IMG/VR virus record: IMGVR_UViG_3300033146_001559
Span: 1-55,560 of that record
Direction: 5' to 3' (one strand)
Source: a virus
Length of the DNA stretch: 55,560 nucleotides
The translations under genes and the position numbers were made by a program. The notes below the pieces were generated by a model. That model searched no databases. It had not been told where the DNA came from and saw only the letters and a program-made list of their open reading frames with translations. Shown piece after piece: positions 1-55,501 of this stretch (position 1 is its first letter; every line of letters begins with the position of its first letter).

Positions 1-88
1 TCCATACGGAAGAAACGTAATCATCGCCCGATGCGAAAAGTGGTCCGCGCCAAAACGGGTCATGCTGTGAATGTTTATAACTACTCAT
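1..88 (-). CDS. Hypothetical protein, cut by the window edge
   Basis: The first 29 codons of a leftward gene that runs off the left edge. The product begins MSSYKHSQHDPFWRGP and I do not recognise it. The start is supported by an ATAATTA box exactly five bases before the ATG, the spacing seen at many virion genes here. Its place just downstream of the gp15 gene suggests a structural role, which is inference only. Confidence 0.5.
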   Translation of the reverse strand, partial: MSSYKHSQHDPFWRGPLFASGDDYVSSVW

Positions 89-129
89 GCTCTTAATTAT
101 GAGAACAGTGCAATATATTACCCGAGGAC

Positions 130-1275
130 TTACGGCTCCCCTATATATTTGTTAGAACATCCAGATAAAGATGTTTCTGATAATCGACTCAGTCCAGTAT
201 ATTTATTCATCAGTATAACATCCACCTCGCCAATAACATCATCTGGCATCACAATAGATACAGTGCCGTCGCCATTATAATAATGACTATCTAATTTGAT
301 CCCATCAAAAGCTGGGTTGTCGGCACTCAAAGAAGCACTACCGCCAAACGGATCATATGCGGTGACGGGGAATACATCAGAATATCGTGGGGTGATGAAA
401 ATGGAGTCGATATTCTCCATGCTCTCACCCTGAAGGTCGATTATCGTCCGTCCACCACCCCACAAATCATAACTAAACCAATCATGATTCTCATCCCAGT
501 CTTCCCCGTCTTCGATCATATCATAACACGACTCCCACCAACTATGGATCGATGGTTGTGCTTTCAGTGTGACCGTATCTGGTTGCTCCATATTGGGCTT
601 CCGATACCAACCACAATCCAACTCCTCCACATACCCGAGATTATATTCGATCTTCTTGATCAACCCAACTTCTCCATAATCGGCTCTATAATACCACCCT
701 TCCAGTGTCAGTCCGAGGTTGGCAATGTATCGAATTTTTGACTTGGAGTCAGTATCCGTGGGTAAATCCATACTAACCGACCCATCCCATGTTACCTTCG
801 ATATCACCTCTTTATCCGTGTGGGGCTCCCTCCATGATAACTGTATATAAGGGTTAAATACTGATAGATAGTGGGCTAGAATCTCTTCCAGATCGCTCCC
901 CTTTGTAGTCACAATCGCTAAATTAAAATCCATATTCACTGGGACAGGTTTCCGATTAACATGGAGTTTATCATTACCCTGCCACCCCCGATCCACCATG
1001 TCGGCTTTCTTCCCCTCGTTCCTACTATCATCTAGCGACATACCAGTCATGGTGACTGACATACACGGTAACACAATCTGTTTATTGAACTGCACGGCCT
1101 CATGGACCTGTCGTGTTTTGTGTCCGTATTTCAGGGGAACTGCAATTGTTTGGAGTATATTACCCCTGACACCACGGGCATCATATTCATACCGACGAAT
1201 GCGACACCCATCAAGTGCCGAAAGGAGATGGATCTTCAATGTTGACAATTCGGAATTCGACGGAATATGATTCAT
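130..1275 (-). CDS. 15: Tail sheath stabiliser / tail completion protein, T4 gp15-like
   Basis: 381 residues. In T4, gp15 forms the ring that caps the tail tube and sheath and contacts the neck. The order of segments follows gp15: an early RRYEY stretch, a VPLKYG strand, QIVLPCMSVTMTG, PVPVNMDFNLAI, a LAHYLSVFNPYIQLSW stretch, and LGLTLEGWYYR near residue 190. T4 gp15 is 272 residues, so about 100 extra acidic and aromatic residues lie at the C terminus. The ATG lies inside a perfect inverted repeat shared with the divergent gp14-like gene, with ATAATTA five bases upstream. The call rests on recalled family pattern, not on an alignment. Confidence 0.7.
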   Translation of the reverse strand: MNHIPSNSELSTLKIHLLSALDGCRIRRYEYDARGVRGNILQTIAVPLKYGHKTRQVHEAVQFNKQIVLPCMSVTMTGMSLDDSRNEGKKADMVDRGWQGNDKLHVNRKPVPVNMDFNLAIVTTKGSDLEEILAHYLSVFNPYIQLSWREPHTDKEVISKVTWDGSVSMDLPTDTDSKSKIRYIANLGLTLEGWYYRADYGEVGLIKKIEYNLGYVEELDCGWYRKPNMEQPDTVTLKAQPSIHSWWESCYDMIEDGEDWDENHDWFSYDLWGGGRTIIDLQGESMENIDSIFITPRYSDVFPVTAYDPFGGSASLSADNPAFDGIKLDSHYYNGDGTVSIVMPDDVIGEVDVILMNKYTGLSRLSETSLSGCSNKYIGEP

Positions 1276-1310
1276 GCCTTTAATTATGTGCGGGGATAAT
1301 TAAAGGCATG
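1273..1310. promoter_or_regulatory. Symmetric divergent late promoters for gp15 and gp14 genes
   Basis: A perfect 15-base inverted repeat (1273-1287 and 1296-1310) separated by eight bases. Each arm contains the whole unit ATAATTAAAGGCATG, so promoter box, five-base spacer and start codon are identical for the two divergent genes. No ribosome-binding site fits between box and start codon. Confidence 0.75.
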
Positions 1311-2045: not shown

Positions 2046-2058
2046 GCGAATATATCAC

Positions 2059-2733: not shown

Positions 2734-2805
2734 AACTCTAATTATGCGTTTTGTTTTAATTTAGGAAAATGGTTGCTTTATCGGGTGGTCATCATAATTA
2801 AATCC

Positions 2806-6287: not shown

Positions 6288-6362
6288 GCCCAATTATAGC
6301 ACCATTTTAGTGACGAACAACCATTAAAATAAAAAAAACACGATGAAGTTATAATTAAAGAT

Positions 6363-7454: not shown

Positions 7455-7850
7455 TTAATTATTCATGATACTATCAACGGCATCGGAAAAATTGGCATTT
7501 TCTAGATATTCGGCGGCACGCGCACTAGACACGTCAAACACGGTCATTACCCATTTAATACTCTCATCGGACGCGTGGACACTTTCTACCTTCGGTGCTT
7601 TATTATAGCTACTGAATATTCGTCTCGCATCATAACGCGTCTTCGGGAGTATTGACTGTAATACCGACACCTTGGTGTTATTTGACCTTTCATGCCAAAA
7701 AGAGTTATTTACCGTCGTGTTGAGCATTTTAGCAAATGCCCTGTTATTGTAAGACAAAAACCGTATAACAGGAAACATCGGAAATGTTTCATAGTATATT
7801 GGTGCTGTCTTATGGGTTATTATATCCTCGAGGTATTTGCTTAGACTCAT
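7455..7850 (-). CDS. 62: Putative clamp-loader small subunit, T4 gp62-like
   Basis: 131 residues from the ATG at 7850. Gp62 pairs with gp44 to load the sliding clamp. The layout fits phage clamp-loader A proteins: an N-terminal stretch ending FPMFPVIRFLSYNNRAFAKMLN (positions about 26-47), a basic PKTRYDARRIFSSYNK segment, and a C-terminal helix with AAEYLENANF. T4 gp62 is longer (187), and the cross-family similarity is low, so the call is tentative. The 5' end overlaps the small upstream gene by 41 bases, suggesting coupled translation. Gp44 is not in the window. Confidence 0.5.
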   Translation of the reverse strand: MSLSKYLEDIITHKTAPIYYETFPMFPVIRFLSYNNRAFAKMLNTTVNNSFWHERSNNTKVSVLQSILPKTRYDARRIFSSYNKAPKVESVHASDESIKWVMTVFDVSSARAAEYLENANFSDAVDSIMNN

Positions 7851-8750: not shown

Positions 8751-8771
8751 GCGTAAACGATAATTAAAGTC

Positions 8772-9236
8772 ATGAGCAAATTCATTAAAGAACTTTTTAC
8801 GAAACAACTCCTTTCTGAAGAAGACGGTGTTTATAGAGATCGCAGCAGACGATTCCCAGATTCATCCGAATCGGATTTTGATGGGGGTCTCGATGATGGG
8901 ACGGATTCGTCTGAATACGGAACCGAGGGACTTGGATTCGATGTGAGTGAGACCGAAGAAAAGAACTTCGCTACCGTGTATGCTAAAGTTGATCAGATCG
9001 AATCAATGATGAAAGAACTAGTGGATCCAAAGAATCAAGAGAACTTGACTCGCCAGTTGGCTAACTTCGATCGTAATGACTCCATCGGCAAAGGACTTTT
9101 GGATAAACTATCACGCCCAATCCTAAAATCAGTCGATAGCCTCGGTTCGGTTAAAAACATGCTCGACCAAGTGGCGTCTGCCGAGCCATCACTCCAGCGT
9201 AAGATCGACGCAATCACTAGTCAGAATCAGGGCTAA
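8772..9236 (+). CDS. Hypothetical protein
   Basis: 154 residues, not recognised. The N-terminal half is acidic and Ser/Gly-rich; the C-terminal half is predicted helical with regular leucines (residues about 70-150). The opening MSKFIKELFTKQLLSEE resembles the short leader-like N termini of several unassigned structural genes here. ATAATTA is five bases before the ATG. The last 20 bases overlap the convergent primase gene. Confidence 0.72.
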   Translation: MSKFIKELFTKQLLSEEDGVYRDRSRRFPDSSESDFDGGLDDGTDSSEYGTEGLGFDVSETEEKNFATVYAKVDQIESMMKELVDPKNQENLTRQLANFDRNDSIGKGLLDKLSRPILKSVDSLGSVKNMLDQVASAEPSLQRKIDAITSQNQG

Positions 9237-10272
9237 AGTAGCTCGTCTGGCCTGAGCTATTCCGCTTATCCATTATTATCTTAATAGCATCCTTGCCTGT
9301 ATACACATGGGCAAGGATGTTTTCCGTTGGGATTTCATCTACTTCCTCCCTCATCGCATATTCATTAAAATCCTTACATTTTTCGAATTTACCACCCCAT
9401 AGGAACACTTTTTTATTGCTTTTGGCATATTCGATGTAAAGTTCGAATACCTCGGGATTATCAAAATCATTGTCGAGGCAATATACCATATCAAAAAATA
9501 CGTCATATGAATCTAAAATCGCCTTCTGTGCGGCATTATATTTAATCCCACCGCCACCAATGGCATTTTCAACGAAAAAACAGTCCAGCGGACCCTCAAG
9601 CACAAAGATGTGTGGCAGTGAGTGGTTGATGGTATTAAGCCCGAAAAATATCTTCTTCCCATTGAGGCACGACATATACTTGCCCGCTTCATTGTGTTTG
9701 AATGTCTGCGCCCTTGATTGGAAGAATTGTAACACACCAGATTCATCATAAAACGGAATAATGATTCGATCTTTATGCACGAAATCACCCAGTGAAAGAA
9801 ACAGATCCACTCGAAACTTAGCGGTGTCCAGTCGTCTGGATCGAATGATCTGGATGGCTGACGTGATCGACCATTCATCATAAAACGCCACTTGCCCTTT
9901 ATTCGTTAAGTTTATCACGTCCAATGGTAGTCGGGGCGCGGGTTTTACGTATTCTTCACGTATATTAATGAATGTCTTGGATGACGAAAACACTTCACCC
10001 TCTTCGGCTCTTATCATGTTCCCAACTTCGTGATATGATATGTTCAGTGCCTTCATAATGAAGCCTACCTTGTTTAAGCACAAACCACAATTATAACACA
10101 CGGTGATCCCCTTATCGGGATAAAAAAATAAACGTTTTTTACGACCTAATGAATTTCCCTCATCACAAAACCGACACCCCCCATTTAACCGACCATCCCC
10201 GCTACGAGTAGCATCAGGGACGAACTCCATAAACTTATCTTCAAAGAAATGATCTGGGACGTGAAAGCTCAT
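9217..10272 (-). CDS. 61: DNA primase, T4 gp61-like
   Basis: 351 residues from the ATG at 10272 (a TTG two codons earlier is also in frame). Gp61 makes RNA primers with the gp41 helicase. A zinc-binding domain is visible: CRFC (Cys33, Cys36) and CYNC (Cys59, Cys62). The TOPRIM part follows, with VLEGPLDCFFVE (the catalytic Glu, about residue 222) and YCLDNDFDNPE (the DxD, about 262). Length is near T4 gp61 (342). An early-type promoter ends six bases before the ATG. Confidence 0.88.
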   Translation of the reverse strand: MSFHVPDHFFEDKFMEFVPDATRSGDGRLNGGCRFCDEGNSLGRKKRLFFYPDKGITVCYNCGLCLNKVGFIMKALNISYHEVGNMIRAEEGEVFSSSKTFINIREEYVKPAPRLPLDVINLTNKGQVAFYDEWSITSAIQIIRSRRLDTAKFRVDLFLSLGDFVHKDRIIIPFYDESGVLQFFQSRAQTFKHNEAGKYMSCLNGKKIFFGLNTINHSLPHIFVLEGPLDCFFVENAIGGGGIKYNAAQKAILDSYDVFFDMVYCLDNDFDNPEVFELYIEYAKSNKKVFLWGGKFEKCKDFNEYAMREEVDEIPTENILAHVYTGKDAIKIIMDKRNSSGQTSYFSPDSD

Positions 10273-10306
10273 GCACAAATGATATAGATTTAGTAATTAA
10301 AGTCAA
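10273..10306 (-). promoter_or_regulatory. Early-type promoter of the primase gene, overlapping a rightward late box
   Basis: Minus strand: TTGACT (10301-10306), 16 bases, TATCAT (10279-10284), six bases, ATG. The spacer contains a TAATTA box reading rightward toward the next gene, so early leftward and late rightward promoters overlap. Confidence 0.65.
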
Positions 10307-12541: not shown

Positions 12542-12556
12542 GTATATAATTAGAGT

Positions 12557-12742: not shown

Positions 12743-12755
12743 ATTACTATTTATA
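12743..12755 (-). promoter_or_regulatory. Consensus T4-type late promoter box
   Basis: Minus strand TATAAATA (12748-12755), followed by five bases and the ATG. In T4 the start point is about six bases after this box, which here is the A of ATG. Confidence 0.75.
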
Positions 12756-15420: not shown

Positions 15421-15440
15421 TATAGTATTTATGGTAAAGT

Positions 15441-15821: not shown

Positions 15822-15829
15822 AATAGTAT

Positions 15830-16186
15830 TTATTCGTTTATGTAATCGATGACACTATTAATAACCCCCGAGGACGGTATCAAAATATCAGTTCCTACCA
15901 AAGTCGGAAGGACAAACGGGTCGTTGAAACCATTAACCATTCCGATCAACCACCACAGGCGATGAGTATCAAAATACAACCGACTGATGGTATGTAAATT
16001 TTCACCCAACGCAACCTGATGTGAAAAAAGGTCAGTCTGACTGATAGACTCGACCTCGAAATAGACCGAATCGGTCATATCGTAATACTTACCCCCCGAG
16101 TCTTCTCTGACCGAGAAGAAATTTTCAAAGTCTAAATCACTCACTGGGGGTAACCCACGGGTGTTTGTTCGTTTAATGTCAGCCAT
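15830..16186 (-). CDS. 53: Baseplate wedge protein, T4 gp53-like
   Basis: 118 residues from the ATG at 16186. The sequence has the LysM-like half of gp53: GGKYYDMTDSVYFE, then HQVALGENLHTISRLYF and LWWLIGMVNGFNDP, ending DILIPSSG. Gp53 joins wedge subunits around the hub. The frame is open 15 codons upstream, but ATAATTA lies five bases before the chosen ATG. It shares that palindromic box with the divergent gene at 16203. Confidence 0.78.
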   Translation of the reverse strand: MADIKRTNTRGLPPVSDLDFENFFSVREDSGGKYYDMTDSVYFEVESISQTDLFSHQVALGENLHTISRLYFDTHRLWWLIGMVNGFNDPFVLPTLVGTDILIPSSGVINSVIDYINE

Positions 16187-16202
16187 AAGGATAATTATAG
16201 TC
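16187..16202. promoter_or_regulatory. Single palindromic box serving two divergent genes
   Basis: ATAATTAT (16191-16198) is its own reverse complement. Read either way it ends five bases before a start codon: the gp53-like ATG at 16186 and the rightward ATG at 16203. Only 16 bases separate the two start codons, so both transcripts must be leaderless or nearly so. Confidence 0.75.
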
Positions 16203-18298: not shown

Positions 18299-18341
18299 AC
18301 GTGAGTAATTATATGTTGTTTGAAAATAAATCAGATTTTTG

Positions 18342-18566: not shown

Positions 18567-18652
18567 AGTATAGTAGCATAATTGGCAATGTAATAGATTA
18601 TTAATCTGTGAGATTTATCTCTATGTAGGTTCGAACCATACCTATACTGCCA
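18567..18652 (+). tRNA. tRNA with long variable arm, anticodon loop reads TTATTAA
   Basis: A full cloverleaf with encoded CCA. The acceptor AGTATAG pairs fully with CTATACT; D stem GCAT/ATGT with GG in the loop; anticodon stem ATAGA/TCTGT; a 15-base variable arm containing hairpin GAGA/TCTC; T stem GTAGG/CATAC with one mismatch and loop TTCGAAC. The seven-base loop implies anticodon ATT (Asn AAU), but a long variable arm is typical of Leu, Ser or Tyr tRNAs, so the identity is uncertain. Confidence 0.7.
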
Positions 18653-19369: not shown

Positions 19370-20245
19370 TCATACCGCAACGGGGGCTTTGATTGAACTC
19401 ATTGGGGTGTAGCCCTCAATGTCGGTATCACTGTGCTCCCAGTCAAATATGCTGGTGAAGTTGTCTGTAGTAATCCGTGGGGGTGGTTGTGGGGTGCGTG
19501 ACAGCTGTTCAATTGCCTGATCCATGTGGTTCTCATACAAGTGGACATCACACCCAAATGCAGTCAACACGCCCTCCTGTAATCCAGCCTCTTTTGCGAT
19601 GAGGTGGAGAAGTAATCCGTAAGATGCAATATTGAAGGGAGCACCGAGGAAAAAGTCCCATGAACGCATGTTGAACGTGAGGTCAAGTGTTTCTCCGTTC
19701 GACGTCAACTGGAACACGTAGTGACACGGGGGTAGTGCTGTATGGTTGAGCCCCATGGGGTTCCAAGCCATACAGATCATTCGGCGATCCAAAGGGTTCT
19801 TCTTCAGTGTTTCGATGATATTGGCAAATTGGTCAATACCATCCGAATCTGCCATGCTATCCCAGCTGTATGGATCATGGAAATTTCTCCAGCTCGCCCC
19901 ATAGATACATTCGCCGAGGTAATCTTCACCCCGCATCTTCTTAATGGTCTCTGGGTCATTACCGTATGGCACTTTCGTCGGACAGCACCAATCAGACCAG
20001 ATCATACACCCTCGATCTTCGAACCATTTCTTAGAGGTGATTCCTTTAATAAATCCTTCCAGTTCAACCTTCATGGTTTTCCATGAAACTCGTTTTGTGG
20101 TTAGCATTGGAAAACCGTCAGACATATGGTGTTGAAGCATTACTGGTGGCATTTTATATGCACCCGTTCCAGTTCTGTTATCCTGTCTGGGGGATCGGGT
20201 TAGTTGACGAAGAATATTAAGGTATTGTGTTTCAATGTCTTGCAT
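19370..20245 (-). CDS. thyA: Thymidylate synthase
   Basis: 291 residues, full length for ThyA (264 in E. coli). It methylates dUMP to dTMP with methylene-tetrahydrofolate. Family motifs are all present: QDNRTGTGA, a FPMLTTKRV segment, the catalytic Cys174 in ALPPCHY, a QLTSNGETLDLTFNMRSWDFFLGAPFN folate/dUMP region in two adjoining blocks, and DVHLYENH near 235. Together with the class II ribonucleotide reductase it supplies DNA precursors. A strong early-type promoter ends six bases before the ATG. Confidence 0.97.
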   Translation of the reverse strand: MQDIETQYLNILRQLTRSPRQDNRTGTGAYKMPPVMLQHHMSDGFPMLTTKRVSWKTMKVELEGFIKGITSKKWFEDRGCMIWSDWCCPTKVPYGNDPETIKKMRGEDYLGECIYGASWRNFHDPYSWDSMADSDGIDQFANIIETLKKNPLDRRMICMAWNPMGLNHTALPPCHYVFQLTSNGETLDLTFNMRSWDFFLGAPFNIASYGLLLHLIAKEAGLQEGVLTAFGCDVHLYENHMDQAIEQLSRTPQPPPRITTDNFTSIFDWEHSDTDIEGYTPMSSIKAPVAV

Positions 20246-20279
20246 GTCGTTATAATAAGTGATTTTAGTAATTTGTCAA
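20246..20279 (-). promoter_or_regulatory. Early-type promoter of thyA
   Basis: Minus strand: TTGACA (20274-20279), 16 bases, TATTAT (20252-20257), six bases, ATG. Predicted start point is the A of the ATG. The -35 box overlaps the 3' end of the upstream gene. Confidence 0.75.
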
Positions 20280-20797
20280 ATCTTTTTCAGTTTTAGTCTG
20301 TCTTTGGAAAACTTTCTGAGCTTTTCGAATTCAATTCTCGTTAATTCGTCCTCCCGACCGAACCGTTGATAGATATTATAATGGCATTCGGTGGGTTTGG
20401 TTACAAATGACTCGGTGTCCACATACCGATTACAGAAATTGATGACGTCCGTTCGTAGGATGAAAACAAAGGAATCCTCGCGTTCAAACACAATATAGTC
20501 AGCATCCCCGTAAAGCCACCCAGCGTGCCCTGTGATGCCTTTAAACTCAATCCAGACATACTCGGTGTCTAAATGGGAATCATTGCGTCTGAGGCGTTTC
20601 TGCGCCTTTAAATCGACTGAGTGTATTTTGTTATTGAATTCAAGTCGGTAGTCAATGTGATGATAAATATCCTCCTCATCAGTTGAATACCTGAACTCTA
20701 TACCGTCAGTTGCAAGAACTGCTTGCTCAAACTGATGTGTTGCTGATTTATCAAGAGCGAATGCTCGTTGACTGGTGTCTCTTTCGTTTAGTTTCAC
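20276..20797 (-). CDS. Putative PD-(D/E)XK nuclease-like phage protein
   Basis: 173 residues with a GTG start. The core HIDYRLEF...HSVDLKAQKR (about residues 47-69) has the D...D-x-K arrangement of restriction-type nucleases, followed by VWIEFKGITG and GWLYGDADYIVFE. Similar proteins of unknown role occur in many phages. TTGACA and a -10 hexamer lie at the early-type spacing, placing +1 one base before the GTG. Activity is inferred from the motif only. Confidence 0.65.
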   Translation of the reverse strand: MKLNERDTSQRAFALDKSATHQFEQAVLATDGIEFRYSTDEEDIYHHIDYRLEFNNKIHSVDLKAQKRLRRNDSHLDTEYVWIEFKGITGHAGWLYGDADYIVFEREDSFVFILRTDVINFCNRYVDTESFVTKPTECHYNIYQRFGREDELTRIEFEKLRKFSKDRLKLKKI

Positions 20798-20832
20798 TAT
20801 GGACAGTGTATCACACCAGCCATGGTTGTCAA
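20798..20832 (-). promoter_or_regulatory. Early-type promoter of the nuclease-like gene
   Basis: Minus strand: TTGACA (20827-20832), 16 bases, TACACT (20805-20810), seven bases, GTG. Confidence 0.6.
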
Positions 20833-21547: not shown

Positions 21548-21555
21548 GAAACTAA

Positions 21556-21776
21556 TTATTGTTTTTGTGTATCCATGGCGAATTTCGCAATGAATGCATC
21601 AGCTACTGTGTTCGCATATTGAATACCAGCAGTTGCATATTTGGTTGACTCGTTTCATCCAATACCATCATGGATGCATGGTGACTAAATGCATTCTTCC
21701 AAATCTCTTGTGCTGAGTATGACACTCCTTCGTTGTGATTATCAATACGCTCCTGTGCAATTTCTTTCTCGTTCAT
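21556..21776 (-). pseudogene. Frameshifted small early gene
   Basis: From the ATG at 21776 the frame runs 57 codons (MNEKEIAQERIDNHNEG...) and stops at 21603. A one-base shift after about codon 44 gives a continuous frame with KYATAGIQYANTVADAFIAKF, ending at 21556 (about 73 residues in all). The composition on both sides is alike, so one base has probably been lost around CAACCAAATATG. A very good early promoter precedes the ATG. It resembles short unassigned phage helical proteins. Confidence 0.55.
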
Positions 21777-21810
21777 GTCAATATATTACCACGGGGTTTC
21801 AAATTGTCAA
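21777..21810 (-). promoter_or_regulatory. Early-type promoter
   Basis: Minus strand: TTGACA (21805-21810), 16 bases, extended -10 TGGTAATAT, six bases, ATG at 21776. Confidence 0.7.
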
Positions 21811-21890: not shown

Positions 21891-22979
21891 CTATAATCCC
21901 CGACGGTAAACTAGGGAGACTCCTCGATCCAAGATATTTTTTGATGCATTACAATCAGCATGGTCAGTGTGATTGCACTTCGTGCATCGAAAAACGTCTT
22001 GAGTTTGTCGATTCATCCTATCGGTATGACCACATGATCTACACATTTGGGACGTATAGGCTGGGTTTACTGATGTAAATCGAACACGGTTCTCTTCACA
22101 ATTTCGTTCCAACCTGTCAAGCCAATATGCATAGTTCCATGAACCAATAGACTTTCGTAAAGACTTCGATAGCTTTCGCTTCTTCTTAGTCTTAAAATTC
22201 ATATTCTTCAACCTTTCAACTACAATCCGTTGTAGGTTTGGGTTCTTATCAAAAATTTCTTTAGCAGTAGTGTTAATGTAATGACGAAGGTAATTTCTCA
22301 ATCGTTTCTGCCTCTTGGAGCCGTGCCGACACCCATTAATTTTATTAATAATGGATTCTATTTCATTACCATAAAACTCTGCATCAGAAGTGACCGCCAG
22401 TGTTTTGATTCCAGTATCAATGCCGATCACTTTACCTTCTTCTTTCTTCAAGCCTGTATCGATTTCAAACACAAACTGCACATAGTCTTTCGTGATGATA
22501 TATGAGTTAAGTCGTTTTCCTTTAGATTCCCATTTGTTAAATTGTTTGTGTTTTTTAATCGGAAGCAGAAGTTTTATTTTGTTACCAATGGAACCAAGCT
22601 TTAGAAAGCAATCAAAGCTACTTTCGGATTCTTGAAGATCGGCAATGGTTGAACTACAATACATCCGATTACCTCTATGTAGGGGTTTTGATATATTCTT
22701 TGGTTTGTGTTTCCACCTCACCCTCACTGCGAGAATCATATCCAGAGCTTCCCTCGCGGCAACTTTTCTCAGCCGTGCCGACATCCAAGTATCGTCTTTT
22801 GTTATATCAACAATGGGCTTGAGTAATTTAGCTTTGGGTGGTAATTCTTTTAACTCCCAGAAATAATCAATGAATAGATTCACCACATTTCCATATTCGG
22901 ACAGCACTTCAGCCAACTCAGATTTCTTCTTCTGGGTTGTGAATTTTAATGTGCATTTTGACGCCCGAACGAACTTCAT
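21891..22979 (-). CDS. tnpB: TnpB, RNA-guided RuvC nuclease
   Basis: 362 residues. RuvC residues are intact: Asp188 in VIGIDTGIKT, Glu255 in RIVVERL, Asp342 in HADCNASKN. A zinc ribbon uses Cys313/316 (CRSC) and Cys332/335 (CTKC). TnpB proteins cut DNA next to a target motif under control of an RNA made from the 3' end of the gene; the hairpin after the stop (near 21865) would end that RNA. The C terminus (VSLVYRRGL) is shorter than in most relatives. Unlike a typical insertion sequence gene it has the phage late box ATAATTA five bases before the ATG. Confidence 0.92.
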   Translation of the reverse strand: MKFVRASKCTLKFTTQKKKSELAEVLSEYGNVVNLFIDYFWELKELPPKAKLLKPIVDITKDDTWMSARLRKVAAREALDMILAVRVRWKHKPKNISKPLHRGNRMYCSSTIADLQESESSFDCFLKLGSIGNKIKLLLPIKKHKQFNKWESKGKRLNSYIITKDYVQFVFEIDTGLKKEEGKVIGIDTGIKTLAVTSDAEFYGNEIESIINKINGCRHGSKRQKRLRNYLRHYINTTAKEIFDKNPNLQRIVVERLKNMNFKTKKKRKLSKSLRKSIGSWNYAYWLDRLERNCEENRVRFTSVNPAYTSQMCRSCGHTDRMNRQTQDVFRCTKCNHTDHADCNASKNILDRGVSLVYRRGL

Positions 22980-22995
22980 ATTAATAATTATAGTT
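22980..22995. promoter_or_regulatory. Palindromic late box in front of tnpB
   Basis: ATAATTAT (22984-22991) lies five bases from the tnpB ATG leftward and also five bases from an ATG (22996) rightward. The same one-box divergent arrangement is seen at 16187-16202. Confidence 0.6.
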
Positions 22996-23081: not shown

Positions 23082-23567
23082 CTACAATTTTGAACCCATT
23101 GATTCCTCCTCCACCTCAACATTCTTCTTCAACAACTCAACCGTGTTCTTAAATGCCTTTTCGAGGACACCCTCGGGTAGTTCCAAGTCATAAACATCAC
23201 CAGAACGAGCCATCCCTGCCATCACACAGTCCGTGATATATTCCAATACGTCCACGAGATTGACATCTTCAGGAACCCCGTCCTCTTGTGCAAGGTGGTG
23301 TCTCCAGATCTTGCGGTGGTTGTCCCACCATCCAGTGTAGCCATCTTCAAATCCATTAGCGAAGTCATCGTGGAACCAGTCAATCTTGGTGAGTTTGTCT
23401 TGATCGTGAATACCAGCGGCTTCTAGGATCATGTTATTAAAGAATCCAAGTCCTTTAACTACATCCCCAATATGCTGGGCTGAGCTGGCAAGAAGTGTTT
23501 CCTTCGTGGTGTTTTTAAAATCACACGTTCGTGAGTCGGCCGTTGCTGATTTCTTAATCGTTATCAT
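23082..23567 (-). CDS. Conserved phage protein, HD/DUF5662-like
   Basis: 161 residues from the ATG at 23567. It has GIHDQDKLTKIDWF (H-x-x-x-K), a WWDNHRKIWRHHL histidine cluster, and VLEYITDCVMAGMARSG, a pattern seen in conserved phage proteins that look like small HD or DUF5662 domains; activity unknown. Its last codons (SMGSKL) lie in the left end of the TnpB element, so the natural C terminus has probably been replaced. The early-type promoter is perfect. It shares its fold type with the next gene. Confidence 0.65.
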   Translation of the reverse strand: MITIKKSATADSRTCDFKNTTKETLLASSAQHIGDVVKGLGFFNNMILEAAGIHDQDKLTKIDWFHDDFANGFEDGYTGWWDNHRKIWRHHLAQEDGVPEDVNLVDVLEYITDCVMAGMARSGDVYDLELPEGVLEKAFKNTVELLKKNVEVEEESMGSKL

Positions 23568-23601
23568 GTGATGATGATAACACATTAATAAAGGTTGTCA
23601 A
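23568..23601 (-). promoter_or_regulatory. Early-type promoter
   Basis: Minus strand: TTGACA (23596-23601), 16 bases, TATCAT (23574-23579), six bases, ATG. Confidence 0.75.
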
Positions 23602-24463: not shown

Positions 24464-24476
24464 ATGAGTAATTATG

Positions 24477-30849: not shown

Positions 30850-30912
30850 ATTTTAATTAATTTGTAGACCGACTAACCACTAGCCCGTCCAGAAATTAAT
30901 TATACTCCACCG

Positions 30913-31738: not shown

Positions 31739-32948
31739 TCAAGCTAAATTAATTAACTTCGGGATCACTGCAAATCCCTCTATCCCATCAGCATTGAATG
31801 CATTTGGGAGTGCTTTTCTCATAATATTGTAAGCTCCATTGACGTCAGCATTGATTTTTCCAAATAATTTGGAGTTGAACATACCACGGGTAGCTCTGTA
31901 TCCTTTATATTCTTCATGTTTCTCAATTTTTTTCCAAGTCGAGGAATGAACATTTAGATGTGTAGGATTCCTCCTGCAACCTAACTTCAATCCCAACCAG
32001 CTTACATTTATATGTTAACATTGAAATAAAAGTATCAAATGGAATCTGCACAAAATTCTGATTAGTTCTTTTTCCCAAATTTATCTCTTGTTTCCATCCT
32101 TTGTTCTTGCCAATAATAAGCAAGGAAACATCGTTGGAATCTAAATGATTAATAATTTTGGCACTAATCTTGTGCATATAATCTTTGATTTTTCTATTTC
32201 TTTTGTCTTGTAATTTCTGTAATTTTCTACTCCATTTTTTGTTATTTTTTGTTTCTAATTCAGCCTGAATTGTTGACTTCTTTTTGTTGAAATATTGATT
32301 TATTGACTTCAGTGGGTTGCCGTTGAAGATGAGGGGCGAAGCCCCGTCTTCAAATACCACCGTGGCGAGGTTGGATAATCCAATATCAATTGATGCCGTA
32401 TTTGCCTCTGAGCGAAGCTCTTCCTCCACAACCTCATACACTATCTCAACCACGAAGTGGTTGGCTCTAGGTATGATTCTGGCTTGTTTTACATCACCCC
32501 ATTCTTCAATATTCGTTGGTATTTTTAAAGTTGTCCCAGACAAAGAAATCACTCCATTTTTACCAAACTCCTTTTTAGAAATTGCCCCTTTTTCAAAAAT
32601 AACAACCTGTTGTCCCTTTTCCGTATCCTTGTATTTAGGGATTTTGGGTGGTCCCGTGAAGCCAACTTTCGATTTATTGTATGATTTTATGGATGCAAAG
32701 AATGCACGGTAATTCTGGTCAACCAGTTTGATGACTTGGTTGCAGATTTTCTTCTTCAGACCACATTTTTCCCAAATTTCTTCCTTTTTGATTTCTTTGT
32801 ATAGTGAAGAAAATCCAATATATTTTCCATTTTCGAAGAAATACTGACGAGCAATATATAAACAGGAATTATATAAGTTTTTGCTTTCAAAGCACAACTC
32901 ATAAAGTTCTGGTGTTGGTTTTAAAATATGTTGCTCTACTAATTTCAT
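31739..32948 (-). pseudogene. tnpB: IS607-type TnpB, frameshifted in an A7 run
   Basis: The first frame (MKLVEQHILKPTPELYELC...) includes the RuvC Asp region (ASIDIGLSNLATV), SLLIIGKNKGWKQE and EESYTSKCSFLDLEK, then stops. A second frame continues IEKHEEYKGYRATRGMF and INADVNGAYNIMRKALPN to the stop at 31739. The switch point is a run of seven A residues (31927-31933 as T on the plus strand); one A fewer gives the normal EKIEKHEE sequence. The gene is either dead or read by slippage on the A run. The zinc ribbon has Cys near residue 335; the second Cys pair is not obvious. Confidence 0.8.
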
Positions 32949-32949
32949 A

Positions 32950-33525
32950 TTATTCGTTTAAAAATTTTTCAATGTGTTCTTTTCTTTTTGCCTTTCTTTT
33001 CCCATACAACCTTGCGGAAAATGAATAAATGATTGAGATTAGATCTTGCATTAAATCCTGCTTATCATCATCGGTGAAGTTGACTACGTCAATTGAGATG
33101 TTGTTTTTGTTTAATAATGTTTCAATATAATTAAACCCAAATCTCGTTAAACGATCTTTATTTTCAACTACAATTACATCATAATCACTTCGATCTAAGA
33201 TTTTCTGTAATGTTTTTCTGGTATCATTCATACCAGAACCAACCTCCTTGAATGATGCAATTACTTTATACCCCTTCGTTGATGCATATTGCTCAAGAAA
33301 AAGCTGTTGATCTTTCAGTGATTCTTTCCTATTATTGTTCGAAACTCTGGCATATATGATAGCTCTTTTAACCTCGGATCTATTTTCTTCATCAACTTTG
33401 ACAAAAATTGAACCACTTGGTGAGGTGAAGGCATTTTCGATTTTCCCTTCCTTGAACCACTTCCATGCAGTTCTATAAACAATGGAATTGTTCTTCGCAT
33501 ACTGACTCAACTTGATGTTCATCAT
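32950..33525 (-). CDS. tnpA: IS607 TnpA serine recombinase
   Basis: 191 residues. An N-terminal MerR-like helix-turn-helix (LSQYAKNNSIVYRTAWKWFKEGKI) precedes the catalytic domain RAIIYARVSNNNRKESL, with Ser in RVS about residue 62, then LDRSDYDVIVVENKDRLTRFGF and a C-terminal basic helix. Length and order are those of IS607 transposases. It starts two bases after an open ATG pair near an ATAATTA sequence. The gene is intact. Confidence 0.92.
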   Translation of the reverse strand: MMNIKLSQYAKNNSIVYRTAWKWFKEGKIENAFTSPSGSIFVKVDEENRSEVKRAIIYARVSNNNRKESLKDQQLFLEQYASTKGYKVIASFKEVGSGMNDTRKTLQKILDRSDYDVIVVENKDRLTRFGFNYIETLLNKNNISIDVVNFTDDDKQDLMQDLISIIYSFSARLYGKRKAKRKEHIEKFLNE

Positions 33526-33579: not shown

Positions 33580-34687
33580 CTAGTTATGACACTCATCCAA
33601 ATTCTGAATATAATGAGTATCTTTAAGATCAGCTGGATCATCAACAATCCCCGTGGTTGTCTCTCCATCAATCACAAATGGGGTCTTTGGTATACTATCC
33701 ACCACAAATTCCTGACCATTCTTCATCCTGTTTCTCATCACCAGTGGTATACATACCAAGTTTACCGAGAACTCGCTTGAGGTCACTAAAATCAACAATG
33801 ACAGTTCCAGTGGCATCGATGCCCACACACTCACGCCTGAATCGATCTCCCGATTCTTTGTGTGTTTCCTTTCCAGATGGGTCCGTTTCGTTTAGATCAC
33901 TCCACCCAAACTCCTTACAACCAATTACTTCATTCAGAAGTTCTGGCGCATATGTCTTCACTATGGCGCGATACCGTTGACCTAGATCACCCCGAAACCC
34001 ACAATCAAACCATCGAATATCAATCGCTTCTGGGAAATCCCAGATTGTATTATCATCGCGGTAGTAGTCGATCCGAGTTGATGCATCATACGTCTTAATA
34101 ATATGGCACGTGGAGGTTCCTTTCAGATCCATCACGGCACTGGCTAAGATCGCACGGTGTAGCCCCTGATCATCTTCATCAAAGAAGAAATCCATGTTTG
34201 AAATACCACGGAAGAATCCAATCTCAGCACTCTGTAAGAAATTTCCAATTCGAGACACGCGCAGCCGCGAACCATTTTGGAGTGAAATTAAATTTCGGCG
34301 AGTATCTGATCGGTGGCGGATCGGTGGTTGCCCTAGAATCTTCTGTAAGGTGGCATCCACGGACATTCTAACGAGTTCTGGGCAATATGATACCACATTG
34401 GCATCATACCCCGCCTCAGTGATCATACGGTATACGATCACTATCTTCATCAACAGTGTTTTACCCACCTGTCTATTCGCAATTGTCAGTGAATTACCAT
34501 CATACATTGCCTGTAGTGCCAATTTATGTTGGGGTGACAATGGCGTCGGTTCATCAATGAACGCCCATAAGTATTTCTCAGCAAACTCTATGATACTACC
34601 ACACTTCAGGTGCTTGATATAAGCACTATCAAGAACTTCTTTGAGTGACTCATCCCCATAATATTTAAACTCTTTATAATCAGACAT
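33580..34687 (-). pseudogene. Second, diverged terminase-like ATPase; 3' end frameshifted
   Basis: The 330-residue first frame carries a terminase-type ATPase: LSPQHKLALQAM Q-motif, Walker A IANRQVGKTLLMK (70-80), and FFFDEDD (167-173) in the Walker B position. It stops at 33695, but another frame continues NGQEFVVDSIPKTPFVIDG to 33580; a one-base change around 33715 would join them to about 367 residues. I see no gp17-type nuclease motif. It differs clearly from the gp17 gene at 16.4-18.3 kb. An early-type promoter precedes it. IS607 lies immediately downstream. Confidence 0.62.
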
Positions 34688-34720
34688 ATAATATATTATA
34701 CCCTATTTTCAGTTTGTCAA
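34688..34720 (-). promoter_or_regulatory. Early-type promoter of the terminase-like gene
   Basis: Minus strand: TTGACA (34715-34720), then 27 bases to the ATG with a TATAATAT stretch in the -10 region. TATAATAT also stands five bases from the ATG, so late-type reading is possible too. Confidence 0.55.
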
Positions 34721-37667: not shown

Positions 37668-37729
37668 ATAGATAATTATCGATTTTCGCCCGATAAAATT
37701 TAATATGGGTCGTAGCTATAATTATTCCT

Positions 37730-40528: not shown

Positions 40529-40704
40529 AGTTTGTGTTTGTTATTATTTATATACTCGTCCTCTTGGATGGATACAACCTGAGCCCAACACTCACCACAC
40601 ACCAAATCATACTCACCTTCTTTAAATTCCGATGAGAATGACCGCTGTTCTAATTGGTGTTTTTCACCACAACACTCACATGTTGTGTGTAGTTCGGGTT
40701 CCAT
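40525..40704 (-). CDS. Small zinc-finger-type protein (59 residues)
   Basis: 59 residues: MEPELHTTCECCGEKH... then LVCGECWAQ, giving two CxxC pairs about 26 residues apart, typical of a small zinc ribbon. The C-terminal stop TGA overlaps the RNase H ATG (ATGA), so translation is coupled. A perfect early promoter sits before it. Similar small CxxC proteins precede replication genes in other phages; the role is unknown. Confidence 0.75.
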   Translation of the reverse strand: MEPELHTTCECCGEKHQLEQRSFSSEFKEGEYDLVCGECWAQVVSIQEDEYINNNKHKL

Positions 40705-40738
40705 GGATTAATGGTATCATCGAGTATGCTTTTGTCAA
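40705..40738 (-). promoter_or_regulatory. Early-type promoter for the CxxC protein and RNase H
   Basis: Minus strand: TTGACA (40733-40738), 16 bases, TACCAT, six bases, ATG. The -35 box is five bases upstream of a structural gene's stop codon. Confidence 0.75.
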
Positions 40739-44572: not shown

Positions 44573-44607
44573 GGGAGTAATTATGACGTAATATTAGTTT
44601 ATCAAGT

Positions 44608-45591: not shown

Positions 45592-45626
45592 GATACTATT
45601 TATTGGGGATCGTTGTAATTACTTAC

Positions 45627-46714: not shown

Positions 46715-48765
46715 TTTCTAATTGTTGACATTCCACCCTCTTTAACAACGGTTAAAGTATGGGAATTTTCGATATTAAGTTCTGTTCGGTGCGTGATGAT
46801 ATATGCACTCTCCTGATATGATCCAAGGCGTTCTTCCAAAATTTCCGCCATCACGCCAAGTCCTTTAGCGTCAATTGATACATCAAACCACTCATCATAA
46901 ATCGATATATTCGTTGTGATTTGATTTTGAATTCGCAGAATATCCTTGAACGTGAACGCGAGTGCTGTATTGAGACGAACTCGCTCGCCCCCCGATAGCC
47001 CACCCACTGGAATTTCATTACCACCTAATGACGTCATCACACAATCAAACGCAGAATCAAACTCAAGCCTACATGGTGTCTCCAGACGTGCCAAATACAT
47101 ATTTACCGTAGTATTGAATAGACTCACGATCCTACCCAAGATGACCTCTCTTATACCATTCTCACCAAACAGTGTTTTCATATGATTCAGGTGTTCGAGT
47201 TTGACCACATTCTCGCTAAACTCAGTTTCAATCTTTTCGAGATCAGCTTTAGATGAGTTTGCATCCTGTTCGAGATCAGCTAAAATAGTTTTAGTCCCAT
47301 CGGCCACTCGTGTTGCATCCAGACGAGTGATAGTGTTCAGCAGTTCAACTTCCTCACGCTTGGATTCTTCCCATTGTCTGATTTCAGTATCATTCATGGA
47401 TACCTTCGAATACAACTGCTTACGTTTATCACTAACCGTTGCGTCCGCATCGTCCAACACGCTCTTACTCTCGTTAATTTTGGTGTATTCATCGCGAAGG
47501 TCGGCTAGTTTAACTTCCTGTGCTCGTATCGCGTCCTCCTCGACCTCGATACGAGCATCAAATAATGGTTTAAAGTCTTCCAGTTGCTTGATATCATCAC
47601 GCAATCCTTCGATCTTCACATCACAAAGTTTAATATAATCACGATGATCCATAATAGTAGCCGTGATCCCATCACGGCATTCCTCATCCATGTCCCGCTT
47701 ACAGGTTGGGCAGATTTTTGCCGACTCCGCTGATATTATAGACCGTTCGATGCGACTGATTTCGGATTCCTCCCTATCAATAGAACCCTGTATGGTTCCG
47801 ATGTCCCTGAAAATTCCCTTCGATTCAAATTTAATTTTACTGATGTTATCCTTGTGTTTTGTGACAACGTCCTTAATGGAGGACGCCTTATCCTTCAAGG
47901 TGTCCTGACTGGCGAGAATCGTTCTTCGCTTAGTAGTTATCGCGTCGACCACCGCATCTAATTTAGCACTCTCATCCGCCATATCAATTTTTTTGGGCTC
48001 TGGTAGGATTACGAATCCATCATAGTTAGATTGTGCCGTCTCTAGTCGCGCTTTATGTAATTCCTCTTCTTCAGCTATCTTTAGCTTTGCGCGGCTGATA
48101 TTACTATCCGTCGTCTCGATCAGTTGCTTGAACACGGATACCTTCCCGTTGAGAACCTCGGTGTCCTTATTCATCTTATTGAAGTCATCGCGCACCATCT
48201 TCTGCGCTTCTTTGATATATGTGAGATCAAAGACTCCTCCGATGAATTTCTCCCGTTCGACCTTCGACATTGTTAGAAACGAATTGGATGTGTGGATGTC
48301 TAAAGCAAATGATTGTTTGAAAACTTCCATTTTGATTCCGCCGAGGAACCGTTCGACTAGATCATCTTGTGTTGACTTGGAATGTGCCTGACTGACGTCT
48401 TCTCCATCAACCACTACCTTTAATTTTGATGGGTTGATGGATCGAGTTACGACTACCTTATGCGTGACACTACCACTTACTAGTGAAAATGACAACTGAA
48501 CTACACATTTCTTCTTTCCCGCTCCTCGGTTATATGGAATATCTGCCTGTGTGAATCCGTCTCTGGTCACTTTACCATAAAGTGCGAATAACACGCCATC
48601 TGTGAAGATAACCGACTTGCCGCACCCGTTTTTTTGTCCCTCTTGGGACACGGATTCATTTTCACCCTTAACAAATGTAATACCACTCATGAAATCATGC
48701 TCAACGAGTTCCCCCGTTGACATGAAATAGGATAATGAGATTTTTTCCAGTTCAATACGCTTCAT
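46711..48765 (-). CDS. 46: SMC-like recombination nuclease subunit, T4 gp46 (Rad50-like)
   Basis: 684 residues (T4 gp46 560). It forms the ATPase of the gp46/gp47 complex that resects double-strand ends. Walker A is GQKNGCGKS (43-51); two coiled-coil arms flank a zinc hook CPTC (352-355); the ABC signature GGLSGGERVRL and Walker B ISIYDEWFD lie in the last 90 residues. gp47 is not in the window. A perfect early-type promoter precedes the ATG. Confidence 0.93.
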   Translation of the reverse strand: MKRIELEKISLSYFMSTGELVEHDFMSGITFVKGENESVSQEGQKNGCGKSVIFTDGVLFALYGKVTRDGFTQADIPYNRGAGKKKCVVQLSFSLVSGSVTHKVVVTRSINPSKLKVVVDGEDVSQAHSKSTQDDLVERFLGGIKMEVFKQSFALDIHTSNSFLTMSKVEREKFIGGVFDLTYIKEAQKMVRDDFNKMNKDTEVLNGKVSVFKQLIETTDSNISRAKLKIAEEEELHKARLETAQSNYDGFVILPEPKKIDMADESAKLDAVVDAITTKRRTILASQDTLKDKASSIKDVVTKHKDNISKIKFESKGIFRDIGTIQGSIDREESEISRIERSIISAESAKICPTCKRDMDEECRDGITATIMDHRDYIKLCDVKIEGLRDDIKQLEDFKPLFDARIEVEEDAIRAQEVKLADLRDEYTKINESKSVLDDADATVSDKRKQLYSKVSMNDTEIRQWEESKREEVELLNTITRLDATRVADGTKTILADLEQDANSSKADLEKIETEFSENVVKLEHLNHMKTLFGENGIREVILGRIVSLFNTTVNMYLARLETPCRLEFDSAFDCVMTSLGGNEIPVGGLSGGERVRLNTALAFTFKDILRIQNQITTNISIYDEWFDVSIDAKGLGVMAEILEERLGSYQESAYIITHRTELNIENSHTLTVVKEGGMSTIRK

Positions 48766-48799
48766 GGTGTGATGATACCACGAAGTTCACATTTGTCAA
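48766..48799 (-). promoter_or_regulatory. Early-type promoter of gp46
   Basis: Minus strand: TTGACA (48794-48799), 16 bases, extended -10 TGGTATCAT, six bases, ATG. Confidence 0.78.
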
Positions 48800-49558: not shown

Positions 49559-50527
49559 TTATTTAAAGTTAGTTTTATAGAAGTCAACTGTTTTCTTGAT
49601 TCCTTCATAGAATGGAGTCATATCCCGAATAATGGTCGGTTTTAGTTTATAACAGAAGTCGTGACCGTTCCTATCAGGAACAAAGTCCATCGACACTGGA
49701 GTATCTATTTCTTTCATAATGAGTTCTGCCACGCGAATGTTATTCATAAGTCCGTCTGGGTTGGTAATATGATTGACTCGGTCACCAAACTCAGCATCAA
49801 GGACAATATCACTCAAAATACCAACAGTATCCTCAACAAAAGTCCATTCCCTAAGATTGGCCCCACTACCATAAATATGGGCTGGTTCGCCGTGAATACT
49901 ACGAGAAATAACATTTGGGATAAATTTACTTGGGTGTTGATATTTTCCATACTGGTTAGATAATACAACATACACCACCTTCATGTCAAGCGTATTCTCC
50001 ATTGATTGGAGAAATAGTGTTTGAGCCGCTTTTGACGCGCTATATGGGTTCCTCGGTTGGATCGGTGAATCCACATTAAATGCTGGGGATAATGCGCTTG
50101 GTAAATCACCATATTCCTCGTCTGTTCTTATCTGGATAAATCGGTCGATATTTTCTGCACCGAGTATATTAATTAGATTTGGGACGAGGCTACAATTAGC
50201 AATGAATACCTCGGTTGGGTGTGTGATTGATGTGTCGACGTGACTTTCTGATGCAAAATTTAATACAGTAACATTGCGTGGTTGTGATTTTAGTGACGTC
50301 GATAAATTATTAATATCCTTTGTTATGACGGAAGTTGGTATATCACTGGAAATCTCAAGGGCGAGCGCATCCGACTCTTCTAAATTCCATTCACATAATT
50401 CATTTGAATCAATAAGTATAATTTCATTAAAAACTGACTTATATGAGGTGACCGTATCTCGCACCACTCCCATAAAATTGGTTCCTATGAACCCGCGCCA
50501 TCCAGTGACTACTAAAGTATTATTCAT
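49559..50527 (-). CDS. NAD-dependent sugar epimerase/dehydratase, RmlB-like
   Basis: 322 residues from the ATG at 50527. GWRGFIGTNF is the Rossmann nucleotide motif; RTDEEYGDLP and NPYSASKAAQ (YxxxK, Tyr near 165) are the catalytic segments of dTDP-glucose 4,6-dehydratases, followed by HPSKFIPNVISR and REWTFVEDT. It would make a deoxysugar nucleotide for the nearby transferases. Its early-type promoter shares a palindrome with the divergent UvsY-like gene. Confidence 0.85.
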   Translation of the reverse strand: MNNTLVVTGWRGFIGTNFMGVVRDTVTSYKSVFNEIILIDSNELCEWNLEESDALALEISSDIPTSVITKDINNLSTSLKSQPRNVTVLNFASESHVDTSITHPTEVFIANCSLVPNLINILGAENIDRFIQIRTDEEYGDLPSALSPAFNVDSPIQPRNPYSASKAAQTLFLQSMENTLDMKVVYVVLSNQYGKYQHPSKFIPNVISRSIHGEPAHIYGSGANLREWTFVEDTVGILSDIVLDAEFGDRVNHITNPDGLMNNIRVAELIMKEIDTPVSMDFVPDRNGHDFCYKLKPTIIRDMTPFYEGIKKTVDFYKTNFK

Positions 50528-50604
50528 ACACAGATAATAGCACGAATATACTCTTTTGTCAAATGCATTTGACAAAAGCTAAAAATTATGATAATATCAT
50601 GCAT
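50528..50604. promoter_or_regulatory. Divergent early-type promoters on one 26-base palindrome
   Basis: A perfect palindrome (50553-50578, CTTTTGTCAAATG and its complement) contains both -35 boxes: TTGACA leftward (50557-50562) and rightward (50569-50574). Each is followed by a TATTAT or TAATAT hexamer, then by the dehydratase ATG (50527) or the UvsY-like ATG (50605, with ATG CAT ATG in frame). Confidence 0.75.
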
Positions 50605-51036
50605 ATGAGTGACGAACAGATGACTTTTACGCAAAAAATGGAGTTTTATCATAAAGACATGGAAAAGGACTGTGAGGTTGATTCCATAACCTTAATGGAT
50701 AAACTGGAAGATCACCCGAAAGTGATGAACAAATGGTTGCGATATTTGTATGACGGTAGGGTGATGTTGGATCTATTAGAGCGGAGGCGGGGTGACGTGT
50801 TTGATGAATGCAAACTGGAATTAGAAACTGGTGATGATCCAAGATATCAAAACATGTCAAATGCCTCAATGAAACGGAAAATTGAATCTTTCTCAAAAAT
50901 TAAACAGCTCGATAAGGCAATTAAACAGCAAACTCTCCTTTGTGAACAGCTGGTTGAATATGTCGGGATGGCAAAATATACCATTCTTCAGTGTTGTCAA
51001 TCAATTATCGAAGTGCGGAAACTCGAAGAAATGTAA
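50605..51036 (+). CDS. uvsY: Recombination mediator, T4 UvsY-like
   Basis: 143 residues (T4 UvsY 137). UvsY loads the UvsX recombinase. The order of features matches: VDSITLMDKLEDHPKVMNKWLRYLYD near residues 22-47 (T4: DSTKLQYEAANNVMLYSKWLNK), then a charged linker and a long C-terminal helix ending VRKLEEM. The next gene is UvsW, as in T4. A GCAT leader of one or two bases is predicted before the ATG. Confidence 0.75.
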   Translation: MSDEQMTFTQKMEFYHKDMEKDCEVDSITLMDKLEDHPKVMNKWLRYLYDGRVMLDLLERRRGDVFDECKLELETGDDPRYQNMSNASMKRKIESFSKIKQLDKAIKQQTLLCEQLVEYVGMAKYTILQCCQSIIEVRKLEEM

Positions 51037-51044
51037 TGTTTATC

Positions 51045-54275: not shown

Positions 54276-54286
54276 GCTACTAATTA

Positions 54287-55501
54287 TCAACCAACGGTCA
54301 CAATCGGAGTCACTCCTAAACTTAGTCTGATTTTCCCAACCAAAACCTCCCGTAAGTGTTGAGCTTCCGCCAATGGAACCAAGAGTCCGTCGTGGATACT
54401 GATTAGTTTGAATTCATCGACCATCTCGGTAATAATCTTGCTCTCCGCTCGCTGATACATAATATGCGCCTTGGACCCGATATCGAGTATGTGTTCGTGT
54501 AGAATTGGGTATTCCGATGACATGTAGTCAATCATCTTACCAATGTGTGTGTGTTCGAATTTTATCTTTGAGTCGACGAGTCCCTCAGTCACTCCACCCA
54601 AATATAACATCCAAGCCTTTTTCGCGGCTTTTCTGGTCAACCCAAACTGCTCATATCCAGTTCCGTTTTCAATATGAGTAGATAACCTCTTTTTTTCATC
54701 CCCATCCGTCATAAGATCAATAATAAAAGTCATTGAGGATGATTTGATATCAATTTCCGTCGAAGTCACACCATCCATTACAATAAAATTACGTAAAACT
54801 GATGGCATTTGATTAATCTTATTAAACATCCGCCCTACATTAGGAGAAACTTTAGAGTCGGACCCCTTGAAATTAAAACTTTCTAATTGATCACGCATCA
54901 TCAATCTCACCATATATGACCACTTCCGTTCAATACCAAGTGTTTCTAATGCTTGTAGGGCACCACTCATATCCAAAATAACACATTTTGTGTCATACAG
55001 GCCACCACGCTCAACACACTCTTGCTTGTAGCGACGTCGCATTGTAGCCGAAAGCCTATCATAAACAGACGTTAGTGTGAAATTGTGTGCGTCGTAGTAA
55101 TTGTCCTCCAACCGATATGCCCTACAGTATGACAAGCCCTCTTCGGAACACCATGTGGGCTTACCCGTTGCCGTATTGTTCATTGGTAACACAATACCAC
55201 ACTCAATGAGAGCATCCCTAATTGGAATAAATAAATCTGTCCCAAATGTTGATCTACCACTCAATGTCGATATGGCACACCATTTATATAAAAACGGTGA
55301 AGATCCCATGTGTTCGTGGTGTGCTCTATATGAAAATAACGTCGTAATGAAGTCTGAGGTCATGTTCTTGACGTGCCTACTACATTCTGGGTATGGTGTC
55401 CCCCTGATAACCAATCGATGCTCCATGACCCAAGACAGGTCAGACCCACATGCTACTGTGAGTGTCTTTTCTGTCTTGAGTTGTTTGAGAGTAATGTTCA
55501 T
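54287..55501 (-). CDS. Protein with family A-like polymerase palm motifs
   Basis: 404 residues. Three blocks in the order of a family A or single-subunit polymerase: TEIDIKSSSM (motif A, Asp251), TRKAAKKAWMLYLGG (motif B, 289-303), and QRAESKIITEM then LISIHDGLLVP (motif C, His370-Asp371). Similar HDG/HDS proteins are found on plasmids and mobile elements and are thought to be replication-related. The N-terminal 200 residues are unassigned and there is no exonuclease domain. The ATG overlaps nothing; a TTGACT/TATTAT promoter lies upstream with a nine-base gap. Confidence 0.6.
   Translation of the reverse strand: MNITLKQLKTEKTLTVACGSDLSWVMEHRLVIRGTPYPECSRHVKNMTSDFITTLFSYRAHHEHMGSSPFLYKWCAISTLSGRSTFGTDLFIPIRDALIECGIVLPMNNTATGKPTWCSEEGLSYCRAYRLEDNYYDAHNFTLTSVYDRLSATMRRRYKQECVERGGLYDTKCVILDMSGALQALETLGIERKWSYMVRLMMRDQLESFNFKGSDSKVSPNVGRMFNKINQMPSVLRNFIVMDGVTSTEIDIKSSSMTFIIDLMTDGDEKKRLSTHIENGTGYEQFGLTRKAAKKAWMLYLGGVTEGLVDSKIKFEHTHIGKMIDYMSSEYPILHEHILDIGSKAHIMYQRAESKIITEMVDEFKLISIHDGLLVPLAEAQHLREVLVGKIRLSLGVTPIVTVG

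Follow-up and report, generated by a model that had tools for sequence, protein, structure and literature searches.

Promoters abutting start codons and predicted leaderless gene expression in a divergent branch of the T4 superfamily

In bacteria, leaderless translation has hitherto been seen mainly as a minority mode or in single genes. The cI mRNA of phage lambda is leaderless and begins on its AUG, as predicted for the messages described here, but it represents one gene in a phage that otherwise uses Shine-Dalgarno (SD) sequences. Bacterial leaderless genes, recognised by TA-like signals (PMC3160421) and described in Deinococcus-Thermus (PMC12340547), also have a -10 element beside the start codon and no SD, but they account for only part of the gene set (up to 46%) and use a cellular sigma factor, whereas the present case concerns a lytic-type phage in which the arrangement extends to two classes of promoter, a phage-type one among them. 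That phage transcripts are often leaderless is noted as a generality in one paper (PMC5312081), and the open-licence papers covered by our literature search did not describe leaderless transcription of late genes in any T4-like phage.

The late promoters of T4 have an octamer at -13 to -6 of the transcript start and no -35 element (PMC2988020). The boxes described here are like those of the T4 gp55/gp33/gp45 late system in their TATA-type octamer register (counted from the start codon), lack of a -35, use of both strands, association with structural genes and the presence of gp55 (in a relative), but here the start codon would lie at +1 and ATAATTA, not TATAAATA, is the prevailing core, and the T4 late region differs in having SD-bearing leaders (27/35 starts with an SD) and no peak of boxes ending five bases before the start codon (gap 5). 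The NATAAATA late promoters of T4-like cyanophages (S-PM2, Syn9; PMC2984593) share the T4-type box with a free first base, but cyanophage S-WAM1 has no gap-5 peak and an SD at 7/24 starts. Far-T4 phages such as RM378 (PMC4360716, PMC7198788) are likewise divergent members of the superfamily, and RM378 has a near-start box, but with a TATTTAA motif, a gap of 6 and SD-like motifs at some starts. The T4-type gene expression set out below is a variant not previously described in the literature searched.

The window, that is, the whole 55.6-kb virus contig IMGVR_UViG_3300033146_001559, covers part of the genome of a divergent T4-superfamily myovirus. Its portal, protease, terminase, sheath and tube are homologous to those of the superfamily, the capsid being absent from the window and present in relatives only. 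PHROG matches identified homologues of gp15, gp20, gp21, gp17, gp18, gp19, gp5, gp46, UvsW and Dda, and the top matches to named phages reached only ~25-31% identity. The window and five IMG/VR relatives, all incomplete, are referred to as the clade (G1, 21.7 kb; G2, 71.8 kb; G3, 127.8 kb; G4, 61.8 kb; G5, 39 kb), and G404 (139.6 kb) is a further close relative. G404 and G2 may be pieces of one genome, since they share one source metagenome and their gene contents are complementary. No relatives were recovered in viral searches with the sheath or the terminase as single-protein query. On the sequence evidence below, we consider it very probable that these phages have gp55-type late promoters with +1 on the start codon and that their early genes, which show nearly the same geometry, are leaderless or almost so as well.

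Register and conservation of the late boxes

The first-pass annotation had placed a box exactly five bases before 24 start codons, and direct reading found all 24 correct (17 ATAATTA, five ATAAATA, one CTAATTA and one GTAATTA), the codon after the gap being ATG except for a GTG at minus-strand start 15420. Exact ATAATTA or ATAAATA boxes at gap 5 to an ATG number 22 over both strands of the window, with 0-2 at adjacent gaps; in the comparison with shuffled sequence that the annotation had proposed, the mean was 0.87 and the maximum 2 (Poisson p ~2e-23). The spacing also holds outside the window, with a gap-5 peak in G1, G2, G3, G4 and G404 and a weaker one in the shorter G5; it is absent from T4, phiM9, HTVC008M, S-WAM1, X1 and Atu_ph04. 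Taking the first ATG of each long ORF, chosen blind to the boxes, 92/397 clade starts have their nearest box at exactly gap 5 and no other gap has more than 7; in G404, 20/120 starts have a box at gap 5, against 7 with one at gap 6.

Structural genes on both strands carry these boxes. They lie at 1281-1287 (minus strand) before the gp15-like tail sheath stabilizer (start 1275), at 2739-2745 (minus) before the gp21-like head protease (2733), at 2794-2800 (plus) before the gp20-like portal (2806), at 37673-37679 (minus) before the gp18-like tail sheath (37667), at 37718-37724 (plus) before the gp19-like tail tube (37730) and at 44578-44584 (minus) before the gp5-like baseplate hub (44572). A baseplate-wedge match among late-box genes is weak, and the major capsid gene has no gap-5 box in any relative that contains it. 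The remaining minus-strand boxes include ATAATTA at 94-100 (start 88), CTAATTA at 12547-12553 (12541) and ATAAATA at 12748-12754 (12742), 15426-15432 (15420), 15827-15833 (15821), 25611-25617 (25605) and 45597-45603 (45591), with others at 7456-7462 (7450), 21553-21559 (21547), 24469-24475 (24463) and 54281-54287 (54275); on the plus strand they are found at 1296-1302 (start 1308, 245 aa), 6351-6357 (6363), 8760-8766 (8772) and, as GTAATTA, at 45615-45621 (45627). Two divergent late promoters, those of starts 16186 (minus) and 16203 (plus), only 16 bp apart, have the 8-bp core ATAATTAT at 16191-16198 in common. Such 16-bp divergent pairs with one TAATTA core were seen 7 times against ~4 expected by a rough estimate, which is no clear excess; only those in which both starts belong to real ORFs stand apart from this chance level. 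When viral contigs were scanned for divergent boxes by DNA pattern, 52 loci were returned, mostly AT-rich chance matches.

The register is kept at orthologous starts for gp15 (6/6), the protease (5/5), the portal (5/5) and the gene in the gp22 position (5/5), and three further gene families keep it 4/4 despite diverged flanking sequence. Among the window starts listed above, 6363, 7450 and 8772 each retain it in 4/4 and 15420 in 3/3, the GTG included. The 7-base core occupies -12 to -6 relative to the start codon, and the T4 late-promoter register is thus matched when positions are counted from the start codon. We saw no -35-like conservation upstream of the late boxes. Bacterial transcription starts usually have a pyrimidine at -1 and a purine at +1. 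At 133/137 late-box starts (97%) the -1 base is C or T, compared with 44% before all ATGs and 44-45% in SD-using T4-like ORF sets.

Our reading is that the boxes would act as T4-type late promoters, read by a phage sigma factor of the gp55 family on host RNA polymerase. Their placement would set the transcription start at the first base of the start codon, structural-gene mRNAs would be leaderless, and ribosomes would recognise the 5'-terminal AUG with no SD contact. From this register we infer that RNA 5' ends fall on start codons and that initiation is leaderless, and by analogy with T4 the box-driven genes would be expressed late.

G404 encodes a homologue of the gp55-type late sigma, flanked by uvsW and gp47 (G404:87296-88156, E 1.6e-11), and gp55 is also present, at ~1e-25, in four members of a broader group of relatives. 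HMM, PHROG, Sigma70_r2 and profile-profile comparisons found no gp55 in the window or in G1-G5, all of them incomplete, and the RM378 sigma as query gave no match in the same contigs. G404 has a weak match to a gp45-like clamp (E 3.8e-5), and the match in G406 is better. The gp55 homologues bear on the proposal that the boxes are simply TATAAT-like -10 elements of the host sigma-70 and not gp55-type promoters. The sequence TATAATTA does include TATAAT, and transcripts from such an element would begin at or near the same base. However, T stands at -13 in only 36% of ATAATTA boxes, a -35 is absent, and the genes behind late boxes are set apart by function from those behind true TTGACA promoters; together with gp55 in G404 and the four other members, this makes the host-element proposal quite unlikely.

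The annotation had also listed four exceptions to the five-base spacing, and all four are real, but only two are late boxes. The gp17-like terminase (minus-strand start 18298) has a late box at 18306-18312 with gap 7, which by T4 rules leaves a 2-nt leader, and a late-like TTAATTA at 30854-30860 lies at gap 4 from minus-strand start 30849 of a ribonucleotide reductase-like gene. The product of the latter (27421-30849, minus strand) is 1142 aa long, and of these only residues 412-935 lie in its best family stretch; the additional sequence is possibly an insertion or intein. The exceptions at 6287 (minus) and 10313 (plus) turned out to be parts of early promoters. The TATAAT at 6293-6298, five bases before the Dda-like helicase start at 6287, is a -10 element of the sigma-70 kind, and the "box" 13 bases from 10313 is explained by its overlap with TTGACT, which is the -35 of the early promoter of the divergently oriented gene 9217-10272; this TTGACT sequence upstream of 10313 is conserved in relatives.

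Early promoters and the scarcity of Shine-Dalgarno motifs

Early and replication genes have sigma-70 promoters of the form TTGACA-N16-18-TANNNT directly before their starts, a class that the first-pass annotation had missed. In the window, TTGACA/TTGACT-N16-TANNNT promoters stand before the gene for thymidylate synthase, the gp46-like gene and primase-related genes, and before several genes of unknown function; from the end of the -10 to the start there are 4-9 bases, mostly 6. On the minus strand they comprise TTGACT-N16-TATCAT-N6-ATG at 10272-10306 (gene 9217-10272), TTGACA-N16-TATTAT-N6-ATG at 20243-20279 (thymidylate synthase, start 20245) and TTGACA-N16-TACACT-N7-GTG at 20797-20832 (start 20797), as well as promoters that end 6 bp before the ATG at 21774-21810 (ATG 21776), 23565-23601 (23567), 40702-40738 (40704), 48763-48799 (48765, gp46-like) and 50525-50562 (50527), and one at 34685-34720 that precedes the ATG at 34687; on the plus strand, a promoter at 50569-50607 ends 7 bp before the ATG at 50605. 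The clade has 35 exact occurrences of TTGACA-N16-18-TANNNT-N5-7-ATG against 0 in controls, and G404 adds 8. By their promoter placement, the early genes should be leaderless too, with messages that either begin on the start codon or carry a leader of at most ~3 nt, the distance from sigma-70 promoter to start being 5-9 bases. The earlier view of a leaderless late regulon is supported in its leaderless part, but the pattern is not confined to late genes, since early genes show nearly the same geometry.

Many early promoters of G2 and G5 stand at gap 9, where a leader of 2-3 nt is expected. In these two relatives (L003-L006, L124-L125) a family of gap-9 early promoters has near-identical ends, ...CGTT-ATG or TCGTC-ATG, which suggests a uniform leader of ~3 nt. 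If the boxes are promoters from which transcription mostly starts 2-10 nt off the start codon, very short leaders would be the rule, and the gap-9 promoters, the gap-4 and gap-7 exceptions of the window, the gaps of 5-8 in the broader group and the gap of 6 in RM378 would all fit. Against this stand the 92 clade starts at exactly gap 5, with no more than 7 at any one other gap, and their signature of -1 pyrimidine and +1 purine, and a message with a leader as short as 1-3 nt would in function still count as leaderless; we regard a general rule of short leaders as unlikely.

SD motifs are scarce throughout. The statement that no SD fits the window starts was borne out, with a motif at 0 of the 46-47 long-ORF starts against 2.7 in shuffles. 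Across the clade, SD-like motifs occur at 17/397 starts compared with 24.7 in shuffles, that is, at or below chance, whereas T4-like controls have 85/176 compared with 21.3; only 1/137 late-box starts has an SD. Leaderless genes are recognised by a -10 that precedes the start codon by about 10-12 bp and by the lack of an SD, and this combination is found here. By strict criteria, 120/186 close-tandem downstream starts have neither promoter type, and the many genes with no recognisable promoter must be translated another way, probably by coupling to the gene that they closely follow.

The lack of SD has a precedent in which messages keep their leaders. Flavobacterium johnsoniae does without SD yet 87% of its leaders exceed 10 nt, with a mean of 33 nt (PMC6847099), and Far-T4-like phages have been tied in silico to Bacteroidetes (PMC7198788). 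The box, at -12 to -6, sits where an SD would sit, and it could act at the RNA level, as a Kozak-like or other non-SD site for the ribosome on leadered messages like those of SD-free Bacteroidota, with promoters further upstream. However, early genes without a box have full sigma-70 promoters 5-9 bases from the start, which leaves no room for a leader, there is no conservation upstream of the box, and only 16 bp separate the divergent starts 16186 and 16203. The 97% pyrimidine at -1, the exact register and a motif near the T4 late consensus also speak against it, as do the promoter counts in the clade, where sigma-70 promoters are enriched (102 vs 22 shuffled) and those of the Bacteroidetes type not clearly so (13 vs 6 shuffled). 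By operon position, late boxes were found at 38% of divergent starts and at 18-22% of tandem ones, but the difference does not tell a promoter from an RNA signal. We judge the RNA-level site very unlikely. Four things are read directly from the DNA: the register, the fact that relatives keep it, the absence of SD and the existence of two classes of promoter. With the -1 pyrimidine, the gp55 of G404 and the sigma-70 geometry, they support the annotation's broader suggestion that translation in this system is built around leaderless messages.

Extent of the pattern, hosts and significance

Capsid-protein searches found many further contigs at 46-53% identity, and 570 candidate stretches at mixed distances were confirmed by tblastn. 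The 45 contigs of this broader group that were checked are SD-poor (56/599), and most of their boxes lie at gap 5 (46) or gap 6 (27). Their sigma-70 promoters number 41 against 41 in shuffled sequence, a weak comparison as mostly structural regions were covered, and since there is no excess the hosts of the broader group may differ. G6, from the SD-poor group, has ATAAATA at gap 6, and a clear SD (AAGGAG) is retained at its major capsid gene (L126, 1344-2873). More distant relatives use SD (10/11 in L109). In the capsid tree, the clade and the SD-poor group fall on one side of a well-supported branch and the SD users apart; the group of the window is separate from T4, cyanophages and pelagiphages, and RM378 lies on a very long branch. 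This cultured Rhodothermus phage (L254-L256) has a gap-6 peak of its box before ATG (11/42) and SD-like motifs at 11/39 checked starts, and we found no prior description of its TATTTAA boxes in the literature.

Early genes have to run on unmodified host machinery and therefore the host should accept leaderless messages, presumably as a native trait. Among six bacterial genomes scanned for the early-promoter geometry, the signal was strong in one Verrucomicrobiota genome, related to Akkermansia (28 vs 1 control), and in G015 and other Verrucomicrobiota, 59 genomes in all, TTGACA-N16-18-TANNNT-N5-7-ATG occurred 449 times against 67 in controls. Leaderless expression is, by this promoter placement, likely to be widespread in Verrucomicrobiota, and the phylum is a candidate host.

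An extra initiator tRNA favours leaderless translation (PMC9031893). G3, along with 15 further tRNAs, and G4 encode a tRNA-Met (L113:13647-13724 and L122:16306-16383), and that of G4 is ~82% identical to the E. coli tRNA-Met present in four copies per genome, which we take for the initiator; both phage tRNAs are accordingly classed as initiator-type. Similar initiator-type tRNAs are also found in Vibrio phages outside the group. In the window, a tRNA-Asn call at 18567-18652 (plus strand) has the anticodon ATT, unusual for Asn, and is possibly a weak prediction.

The window also carries mobile elements. An IS607-type pair, serine resolvase and TnpB, lies at 31923-33525 (minus strand); as a host clue its TnpB was uninformative, the best matches among 84,980 genomes reaching 43% identity and spreading over several phyla. 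A second TnpB-like ORF (21891-22979, minus strand) begins 5 bp past the late box at 22985-22991, as though a late promoter of the phage drove a mobile element; the ORF had no match in 388 genomes of the phylum of G015, in a search run without a positive control.

It is an evenly balanced question whether a large part of the T4 superfamily, most of it uncultivated, gave up SD-led translation, with all promoter-proximal genes, early and late, transcribed from the start codon, in hosts that initiate well on leaderless messages and in some cases with a phage initiator tRNA. RM378 and Rhodothermus marinus open part of this reading to direct test. If it is true, these phages would offer a natural system for 5'-AUG initiation at high flux, the pattern would hint at the hosts of uncultivated phages, gene finders that rely on SD may misplace starts in these genomes, and the mode of translation would be something that can switch inside one phage superfamily.
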